Origin: Alphaproteobacteria bacterium
GTDB taxonomy: Bacteria; Pseudomonadota; Alphaproteobacteria; SP197
DNA: 44,697 nt
Direction of reading: 5' to 3'
NCBI GenBank assembly: GCA_016869675.1
Contig: VGDP01000026.1
Location: forward strand, 1 to 44,697
The position numbers were made by a program, and so were the translations under genes. Position 1 is the first letter of the stretch. Every line of letters begins with the position of its first letter. Shown here piece after piece: positions 1,162 to 8,155 of the stretch. A model generated the notes under the pieces. The model worked only from the letters and a program-made list of their open reading frames with translations. It had not been told where the DNA came from and ran no database searches.

Positions 1162-2285
1162 AGACCCGGCCGGGCGGGCGACAGTGTCGCCGCCGTGACG
1201 CCGAACGCGTACAGCTCAGCCGGCACGTCGCCGACGGCAATCAGGCCCGCGACGGCGTGGCCCATGGCCGGCGAGGTCAACATGCCGACACCGCCCAGGC
1301 CCGCCAGCCAGAACAGCCCCTCGGCGTCCGCCGCGAAGCCGGCCACGGGCGTGCCATCCGGCACGAACGAGCGCAGGCCGGCCCACGACCGGATCGGCCG
1401 GCCGACGCGCAAGTTCGTCGCGGCCTCGATGTTCGCCACCGCCTGGGCCACGTCGAGGTCGTCGGGCCAGGCGTCGCGTGGTTCATCGGGCGTGGCGTCG
1501 GACAGGCTGCCCATGAACGCGCCACGCTGCGGCTTGACGTACCACGTCTCGTCGGCGTCGCCGGTGTGGGCCCAGGCGGACGTGTCGCCGGTGTCCGCCG
1601 GTGCGGCGAAGACCAGCGCCGTGCGCCGCTTCGGCACCAGGCCGAGCGGGCGGGCGCCGGCCAGGCGCGCGATCGCATCGGCCCAGGCGCCGGCGGCGTC
1701 GATCACGATGGGCGCCGCGAAGTCGCCGGCGCGGGTGCGCGCGTGCCATTGGCCAGCGCGGCGCTCGAGCGCCGTCACCTCGGCGTCGGTGACCAGTCGC
1801 ACGCCCGCGGCACGCGCCCCGCGCAGATACCCCTGCAACAGCGCGTCCACGTCCAGATCGCCCGCGCCCGGCTCACTGAGCCCGGCCGAGTAGAGGCCGC
1901 GCGCCAGCGGCGGGAACAGGCGGCGCGCCCCCGCCTCGTCGACCAGGTCCGTGACGATTCCAATGGCGGCGCACGCCACCTGCTCGGCGACCAGTTCGGC
2001 CTCCTGCCCGGCGCGCGCGACGACCAGGGAGGCGCGCGGCGTCAGCAGCGGATGATCGGCGAAGCCTGGCGGCGGCCGCTCAAAGAAGCCGCGGCTGGCG
2101 CGCGCGAGCGCCCGCACGATGGGCGAGCCGAACGCCTCGGCGAACTGCGCCGCCGAGCGGCCCGACGTATGGTAGCCGGGCTGGGGCTCGCGCTCCAGGA
2201 TGACGACCCGGTGCTTGGGCGCCAGGAAATAGGCGGCCGTGACGCCGGCGATCCCGGCGCCGATGATCAGGATGTCGGTGGTCAC
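1158..2285 (-). CDS. FAD-dependent oxidoreductase, DAO family (glycine/D-amino-acid oxidase-like)
   Basis: Predicted flavoenzyme of 375 aa that oxidises an amino acid or secondary amine. The dinucleotide-binding motif GAGIAG (residues 9-14) follows a hydrophobic beta strand directly after the start, and an acidic end to the second strand (VVILERE) binds the FAD ribose. The C-terminal half has the DAO pattern (RPIRSWAGLRSFVPDGTPV, then an FWLAGLGGVGMLTSPAMG nucleotide-contact stretch). The GTG at 2285 is chosen because GAGGAG sits 7 bases upstream and the flavin fold begins at once; the longer upstream frame has no homology-like sequence. It diverges from the AstE-like gene across 111 bases and overlaps pabB by 4 bases. 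The exact substrate cannot be read from sequence. Confidence 0.85.
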   Translation of the reverse strand: MTTDILIIGAGIAGVTAAYFLAPKHRVVILEREPQPGYHTSGRSAAQFAEAFGSPIVRALARASRGFFERPPPGFADHPLLTPRASLVVARAGQEAELVAEQVACAAIGIVTDLVDEAGARRLFPPLARGLYSAGLSEPGAGDLDVDALLQGYLRGARAAGVRLVTDAEVTALERRAGQWHARTRAGDFAAPIVIDAAGAWADAIARLAGARPLGLVPKRRTALVFAAPADTGDTSAWAHTGDADETWYVKPQRGAFMGSLSDATPDEPRDAWPDDLDVAQAVANIEAATNLRVGRPIRSWAGLRSFVPDGTPVAGFAADAEGLFWLAGLGGVGMLTSPAMGHAVAGLIAVGDVPAELYAFGVTAATLSPARPGL

Positions 2286-6082: not shown

Positions 6083-6826
6083 ATGGACCTTAGCCCCATC
6101 CTCGACAATCTACCGCGCTTCATCGATGGCCTGATCCTGACTATCGAGATCACGGCGCTGAGCGTCGTCATCGGGCTGTGCTGCGCCGTACCGCTCGCCC
6201 TGCTGCGGCTGTCACCGCGCCCATATCTGTGGATGCCGGTCTACGGCTACATCTTCTTCTTCCGCGGTACGCCGCTGCTGGTCCAGATCTTCCTGATCTA
6301 CTACGGCAGCGGCCAGTTCCGAGCCGAGCTCGAGTCGCTCGGACTGTGGACCCTGTTGCGCGAGCCTTACTTCTGCGCGGTACTGACGCTGACCCTTAAC
6401 ACCGCAGCCTACACCGCCGAGATCCTGCGTGGCTCGATCCAGGCCGTACCGCTCGGCGAGGTCGAGGCGGCGCGCGCCGTCGGCATGTCGCACTGGCAAC
6501 AGGTACGGCGCATCATCCTGCCCAAGGCCTTCCGGCTCGCCCTGCCCGCCTACACCAACGAAGTCGTGTTCCTGTTCCAGGCCACAAGCCTGGTCAGCAT
6601 CATCACGCTCATGGACCTGACCGGCGTGGCGCGTGTGTTGATCTCGCGCTCGTTCGCCGTCTACGAGATCTGGATCTTCGTGGGCGCGCTGTATTGCCTG
6701 CTCTCATACGGGATGCTCTACGGATTCCGCTGGATCGAGCACCGCTGGTCGGGGCACCTGCGCTTCACGCCCGGTACGGCAGGCGCCAGGGCGGATGTCC
6801 AGGCGACGACGGTGACCGTGCGCTGA
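6083..6826 (+). CDS. Polar amino-acid ABC transporter permease (HisM type)
   Basis: Second membrane subunit, 247 aa, about five spans. It shows the family strand FFFRGTPLLVQIFLIYYG near residues 57-74 and the EAA loop EVEAARAVGMSHWQQVRRII. The final 25 residues are polar and variable. It follows the HisQ-like gene after 3 bases and ends the transport operon; a short hairpin lies just downstream. Pairing with the HisQ-like subunit and the HisP-like ATPase is expected. Confidence 0.9.
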   Translation: MDLSPILDNLPRFIDGLILTIEITALSVVIGLCCAVPLALLRLSPRPYLWMPVYGYIFFFRGTPLLVQIFLIYYGSGQFRAELESLGLWTLLREPYFCAVLTLTLNTAAYTAEILRGSIQAVPLGEVEAARAVGMSHWQQVRRIILPKAFRLALPAYTNEVVFLFQATSLVSIITLMDLTGVARVLISRSFAVYEIWIFVGALYCLLSYGMLYGFRWIEHRWSGHLRFTPGTAGARADVQATTVTVR

Positions 6827-6835
6827 CATGCTTGC

Positions 6836-6854
6836 GCACCGTCGAAGGCGGTGC
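6836..6854 (+). terminator. Possible weak terminator hairpin after the ABC operon
   Basis: GCACCG (6836-6841) pairs with CGGTGC (6849-6854) across a 7-base loop, 10 bases after the permease stop. The sequence that follows (TGTC...) is not T-rich, so this is not a textbook intrinsic terminator. Confidence 0.3.
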
Positions 6855-6869
6855 TGTCTGACGTCAGCG

Positions 6870-7073
6870 CCCATGGGACGGATTGAAGGGATTCGGTAGT
6901 GGAGGATTTCTGGCTCATCGTAGGGACCGGAGATGAGACAGAAATCGCAAGCATTGATGTCCGAGGTGGAGCAGACGGTGCGGGACATCCGCCGTCGGAC
7001 GCGCAAGCAGTATTCGGCCGAGGAGAAGATCCGGATCGTTTTGTCCGGGCTGCGTGGCGAGGACAGCATCGCG
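6870..7073 (+). mobile_element. 5' remnant of an IS3-family insertion sequence
   Basis: From base 6933 the translation begins MRQKSQALMSEVEQTVRDIR and continues RRTRKQYSAEEKIRIVLSGL and RGEDSIA. This matches the N-terminal helix-turn-helix start of IS3-family OrfA proteins, whose next residues would be ELCRREGI. The match stops at residue 47 (base 7073), where an unrelated domain begins. The leader before the ATG probably belongs to the element too; the left limit at 6870 is a guess and no inverted repeat was recognised. The rest of OrfA and all of OrfB are absent. Confidence 0.65.
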
Positions 7074-7343
7074 TCCATGGATGGAGCGTGGTCCGAACGC
7101 CAGGGGGACAAGCTGGCCGACACATGGCGCGCCGACCGGCCGACCACGGCGATGGTGCTGCGTATCCAGGACGGGCTCGCCTCGTTCGGCTATCCGGTGG
7201 GTCCGGTGGACGGCATCGTCGGGCCCAAGACGCGCGGCGCCATCCGTAGCTATCAGAAGCGCAACGGGCTGACCGTCGACGGCCAAGCCACCGGCGCGCT
7301 GCAGGACCACATCGTGGCCCAGCGGCTCGCCATGCCGAACTGA
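6933..7343 (+). CDS. Chimeric ORF: IS3 OrfA N-terminus fused to a peptidoglycan-binding domain
   Basis: A 136-aa open frame in two parts. Residues 1-47 are the start of an IS3-family OrfA (helix-turn-helix region). Residues 48-136 are an unrelated segment with a PG_binding_1-type fold at about 68-125, including LRIQDGLASFGYPVGPVDGI and VGPKTRGAIRSYQKRNG. The usual signal peptide of PG-binding proteins is missing, so the product would stay in the cytosol unless an internal start is used. The best explanation is that an IS inserted in, or recombined with, a host gene for a secreted PG-binding protein, replacing its 5' end. The frame is open across the join, so a fusion protein may be made. It converges on the DUF1491 gene, 4 bases apart. 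Confidence 0.6.
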   Translation: MRQKSQALMSEVEQTVRDIRRRTRKQYSAEEKIRIVLSGLRGEDSIASMDGAWSERQGDKLADTWRADRPTTAMVLRIQDGLASFGYPVGPVDGIVGPKTRGAIRSYQKRNGLTVDGQATGALQDHIVAQRLAMPN

Positions 7344-7347
7344 GGCG

Positions 7348-7686
7348 TCAGCCGACCACCGGTGCGTCCAGTTCGTAGCGGCCGTCGCGGTCCTCGACCT
7401 CGAGCACCCAGACGTCCGGGTCGCGCGCGATGGCCCGGCCCAGATAGGCGTCGGCCTCCGCCTCGGCCACGGTCGCCGGGCCGAACACCGCGAGCCAGGC
7501 GTCCGTGCCTTCCGCCGTCACCGTGCGGGCGTAGACGTGGCAGCCCAGGCCCAGCCGGTTGTGCTTGACGATCACCGTGCCCGCCTGCTCGTCACCCTTG
7601 TGGGTCACCACCACCGGGATGTGGTCCTGGTCGCCGCGGCGCACCTGCACCTGAACCCAGAACGCGGTGCGCAGCCGGGGCGGCAC
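7348..7686 (-). CDS. DUF1491 family protein
   Basis: A small 112-aa protein matching the alphaproteobacterial DUF1491 family in length and pattern: an N-terminal RLRTAFWVQVQVRR, a central VIVKHNR strand, a TDAWLAVFG strand and a C-terminal DPDVWVLEVEDRDGRYELD. No catalytic motif or membrane segment is visible and its function is unknown. It starts 4 bases after the stop of the preceding small gene and lies last in an acs-led minus-strand operon. Confidence 0.75.
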   Translation of the reverse strand: MPPRLRTAFWVQVQVRRGDQDHIPVVVTHKGDEQAGTVIVKHNRLGLGCHVYARTVTAEGTDAWLAVFGPATVAEAEADAYLGRAIARDPDVWVLEVEDRDGRYELDAPVVG

Positions 7687-7690
7687 GGGC

Positions 7691-8155
7691 TCAGGCCATG
7701 GGCCGCAGGTCGGGCTCCACCCATCTGCGCCGCGCCGCGACCGCCATCAGACGCTCGCGGCTCCAGTAGGTGAACGGCCAGTCCTTGCCGCCCTCGGGCC
7801 GCGCGGCCAGGTCGTTGACCAGCGCGACGAACGAGGCGTCAACCGGCGCGCCCTCCAGGTAGCACGCGACCTGCCAGACGAAGAAGCGCGTGATCGTCTC
7901 GTGATAGCCGCCGCTGTCGGTGTTCTGGGTGCCGACGCTCAGATTGTACGACCAGATGCGGTCGCGCAGGCGCGCCAGCGCCTCGGCCTCGCCGTAGCGG
8001 CGGATGTGCCAGATCGCCACCACGATATGGGCATGGTGCGTCCAGCGCTGCCGCACCAGCGTGCGGTCGAGGAAGCCCTTGACGATTTCCTCGACCGCCG
8101 CGTCGGACGCGAACGGCGCGTGGGCGCGCGGCCCTTCGGGGGTAGGTGCGTTCAC
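7691..8155 (-). CDS. Conserved hypothetical protein
   Basis: A 154-aa protein with no signal peptide or membrane span. It carries the pattern FLDRTLVRQRWTHHAHIVVA (28-47), then LRDRIWSYN and NTDSGGYHETITRFFV. The conserved W-T-H-x-x-H and G-Y-H-E-T-I-T blocks recur in a widespread proteobacterial family of unknown function; paired histidines could bind a metal, but that is a guess. It starts 16 bases after the acs stop and ends 4 bases before the DUF1491 start, so it is likely cotranscribed with both. Confidence 0.65.
   Translation of the reverse strand: MNAPTPEGPRAHAPFASDAAVEEIVKGFLDRTLVRQRWTHHAHIVVAIWHIRRYGEAEALARLRDRIWSYNLSVGTQNTDSGGYHETITRFFVWQVACYLEGAPVDASFVALVNDLAARPEGGKDWPFTYWSRERLMAVAARRRWVEPDLRPMA

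Follow-up and report, generated by a model that had tools for sequence, protein, structure and literature searches.

An open reading frame joining the start of an IS3-family OrfA to a peptidoglycan-binding domain is probably a fusion pseudogene

The window, a stretch of 44,697 nucleotides from an alphaproteobacterial draft genome, contains a single open reading frame (ORF) in which the beginning of an IS3-family transposase gene runs, in frame, into the end of a gene for a small peptidoglycan (PG)-binding lipoprotein. We consider this ORF to be a fusion pseudogene, a piece of genome debris that would have arisen by insertion of an insertion sequence (IS) and an adjacent deletion or recombination, and assign to this reading a probability of about 0.88. 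The features on which the analysis is based are the following:

6083..6826, plus strand: ABC-transporter permease gene (BPD_transp_1), the left flank, ending 28 bp before the IS.
6855..7072, plus strand: left end of an IS3-family element whose 3' part is gone, with 86-92% identity to 10 other left ends.
6933..7343, plus strand: fused ORF of 136 aa with an ATG start, OrfA N-terminus plus a C-terminal PG_binding_1 remnant.
7072..7073, no strand: junction from IS to native sequence, placed by comparison with other IS copies.
7073..7343, plus strand: 3' remnant of a small glycine-zipper/PG-binding lipoprotein gene, assigned by PF01471, identity to the homologue in genome G007 and an alignment of homologues.
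7348..7686, minus strand: convergent DUF1491 gene (PF07372), the right flank, ending 5 bp after the fused ORF.

The 218 bp between 6855 and 7072 are all that remains of the IS in the window and comprise the left terminal repeat (TGTCTGACGTCAGCGCC), a 78-bp leader and OrfA codons 1-46 plus two bases. Identity to the other left ends of the same genome (86-92% at the DNA level, over up to 227 bp) begins at the terminal repeat, which identifies the segment as an IS3 left-end remnant. The first-pass annotation had recognised the first 47 codons as the start of an IS3-family OrfA, and this was borne out, since 49/67 residues are identical to the 124-aa OrfA of contig C57, which belongs to Pfam HTH_Tnp_1; it had, nonetheless, placed the start of the feature at 6870, which is neither the start of the IS (6855) nor that of the ORF (6933). 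Residues 1-47 taken alone gave no Pfam match, and most of the OrfA helix-turn-helix is missing from the window. No match to OrfB (the DDE integrase core) was found on contig C26, to which the window belongs. The window does not contain an autonomous IS3 element, which would have an OrfA with HTH_Tnp_1, an OrfB and paired terminal repeats; only the left repeat is present.

The join lies after base 7072, where the window reads GACAGCATCGC-GTCCATG and intact IS copies read GACAGCATCGC-CGAGCTG, so that 46 2/3 OrfA codons are followed, in the same frame, by 89 codons with PG_binding_1. The in-frame join and the nature of the second half had both been described correctly in the first-pass annotation: residues 74-122 match PF01471 (PG_binding_1) with an E-value of 2e-14 and 54 bits, well over the curated cut-off, and the domain, securely assigned from sequence, is intact. 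Judged in the same way, the resemblance of each half of ORF 6933-7343 to its family is far beyond chance, and their common frame is a 1-in-3 coincidence.

The nearest full-length relatives of the 89-codon tail are lipoproteins of about 145-150 aa from other Alphaproteobacteria (in genomes G007, G031, G085, G318 and others), which are composed, from N- to C-terminus, of a signal peptide carrying a lipobox cysteine, a YMGG glycine zipper (PF13441) and PF01471. In an alignment of the tail with nine distinct full-length homologues, all of them with lipobox signal peptide and glycine zipper, the window sequence (DKLADTWRADRPTTAMVLRIQDGL...) tracks the homologues from just past the zipper to the C-terminus, which is the natural one; where exactly the homology begins is uncertain, because strong identity sets in only at VLRIQDGL. 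Identity to the G007 homologue reaches 44% over residues 5-84 of the remnant. Of the parts that characterise these lipoproteins, the window has the C-terminal PG_binding_1 domain and, from 6855 to 7343, neither a lipobox signal peptide nor a glycine zipper. What it retains is the exported domain, without everything that would export it.

Two other candidates were considered and rejected. The PG-binding genes that are convergent with DUF1491 genes in relatives (G005, G001, G002, G009 and G012) do not represent the uninterrupted form, since their domain is N-terminal in secreted proteins of about 265-340 aa and identity is about 32-41%. On contig C14 near position 68,000 (locus L177, about 1502-1741, minus strand), a 79-aa glycine-zipper lipoprotein is 63% identical to the N-terminal part of the homologue and ends where the PG-binding domain of fused homologues starts. 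Rather than the relocated missing front half, it is more likely a stand-alone gene, because it has a natural end (DPPWAD-stop) and similar N-terminal-only matches with a nearby stop occur in many genomes; comparable stand-alone glycine-zipper forms seem to be present in other genomes.

The genome is a draft of 3.49 Mb in 97 contigs, in which contig ends interrupt three or four full copies of the IS. A search of it for the IS, as proposed in the first-pass annotation, located the left end at 11 sites, the window and 10 others, and intact copies encode a 124-aa OrfA. All copies start at the same base with TGTCTGACGTCAG (in a variant form, TGTCTGACGTCAGAG, on C6), and the right end, read from C38 and C57, is ...TATCCTGACGACGGACA; it matches the left end imperfectly in inverted orientation, the usual arrangement in IS3 elements. 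Four of the 11 left ends (C57, C44, C75 and C65) are interrupted by contig ends, and the remaining seven (window, C18, C28, C6, C32, C31 and C38) are cut, each at its own point. Breakage of the IS is routine in this genome, since six of the 10 other left ends are cut, at six different points. When OrfA was read onward in the seven cut copies, a recognised domain followed in the window only, the other continuations having been searched in part: the C18 copy continues antisense to a 325-aa ORF, the C6 copy meets a stop five codons on, and in the C38 copy a different sequence begins after about 100 bp. Since the chance per break is 1-in-3 for the frame and about 1-in-2 for the strand, one in-frame join among seven breaks would be expected.

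That the IS is repeated, and that four contigs end inside it, raises the question of an assembly artefact, in which a repeated IS end was wrongly joined to an unrelated contig. We regard this as improbable: the 218 bp are continuous with both flanks, and the divergence of the window copy from each of the others is about 5-14%. This divergence, together with a 9-bp deletion common only to the C18 copy, indicates that the window copy is not a collapsed repeat.

Some further observations were made on the IS in this genome. The seven left-end fragments stand against no solo right-end fragment; right ends occur at contig edges only (C70, C38 and C57), and internal IS pieces on C35 and C68. This asymmetry could be due to chance or to one-ended events. 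The C28 fragment (L005, 1677-1738) ends in a fold-back, with IS bases and then the reverse complement of those bases, a structure that template switching would produce. On C68 (G000:C68:5143-5158), a 16-bp palindrome, TGTCTGACGTCAGACA, corresponds to bases 1-12 of the IS tip overlapping with their own reverse complement.

In other genomes, residues 1-49 are matched at 63-86% amino acid identity in dozens of cases. The first-pass annotation had named two results that would speak against its description, a conserved 136-aa family and a lack of resemblance of residues 1-47 to IS3 OrfA, and neither was obtained: the resemblance holds, and in a collection of 84,980 species genomes the best 80 of 358 loci all match the OrfA part, residues 1-65 at most, and none has both halves. 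In this best-80 set, about 19-20 of the 64 loci away from contig or locus edges (about 30%) have no continuous OrfA and OrfB; those inspected include deletions as well as simple frameshifts or stops, and in L101 and L141 the break lies at most a few codons away from that in the window. Copies of this IS that are 3'-truncated or disrupted are common in other Alphaproteobacteria.

As alternatives, the first-pass annotation had proposed capture of the domain by an IS, perhaps creating a new gene, or mere debris of a deletion; the latter is supported and the former is not. If the PG-binding sequence were cargo that the IS could move, as the intact left terminal repeat and the in-frame join might suggest, it would sit between two IS ends, yet no right end lies downstream: with a query taken from the C38 and C57 copies, none was found near the junction or 7343, the sole match being one of 14 bp, attributable to chance. 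There is also no room for a right end directly behind the PG domain, because the convergent DUF1491 gene has its end just 5 bp past the fused ORF. The PG tail has no second occurrence in the genome, which likewise contains no other copy of the fusion and no further pairing of the domain with an IS copy. Capture is largely refuted, and we consider it the least probable of the readings.

The open fused frame and the intact PG domain fit recent debris, and they would fit a retained function too, which counts against a pseudogene. Both the IS leader and the start of OrfA are retained, and the leader could drive expression of a fusion protein that has a new role in the cytosol. Against such a working gene stand the absent signal peptide, the incomplete helix-turn-helix, the absence of relatives with the fusion among the best 80 loci and, as a weak test, a scan of 6700-7700 for sigma-70-like sites only, in which no promoter-like site was found. 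A working gene is, in our view, quite unlikely; its specific form, in which a gene was born by IS insertion and deletion, the IS leader expresses the fusion and a cytosolic PG_binding_1 domain took on a new binding role, is slightly less likely still.

Debris is much the best explanation, because there is no nearby right end, the PG tail is single-copy and no locus among the best 80 has both halves. Both parts, their junction and the absence of the rest are observed; the order of events, the deletion itself and the loss of function we infer. An IS3-family element would have inserted near or in the gene for a small outer-membrane or periplasmic lipoprotein. A later deletion or illegitimate recombination would then have eliminated the remainder of OrfA, OrfB in full and the right end, which make up the 3' part of the IS, together with the 5' portion of the lipoprotein gene, joining OrfA codon 47 to the 89 leftover codons. 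Any translation product would stay in the cytosol and combine an incomplete transposase helix-turn-helix with a PG-binding domain; it would probably have no function, because this domain could not reach peptidoglycan.

The fusion is of little importance in itself. It is, nevertheless, a clear example of IS breakage producing in-frame ORFs, which gene callers would label as peptidoglycan-binding proteins, and, if it works, it would exemplify a new gene from an IS-linked deletion. IS-associated truncation and fusion pseudogenes in general have the same layout, an IS end against a gene fragment, and the shared frame is the sole difference of the present case. IS3-family elements with an HTH_Tnp_1 OrfA and an integrase OrfB, such as the Nioella copy (L093), have the same left terminal repeat, leader and OrfA start, whereas the element in the window is reduced to 218 bp, without OrfB and without the right end. 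In the small glycine-zipper/PG_binding_1 lipoproteins (such as L010, L014/L170, L169 and L171), the C-terminal domain and the following residues align to the end with those of the fused ORF, in which OrfA residues replace the signal peptide, lipobox and glycine zipper.
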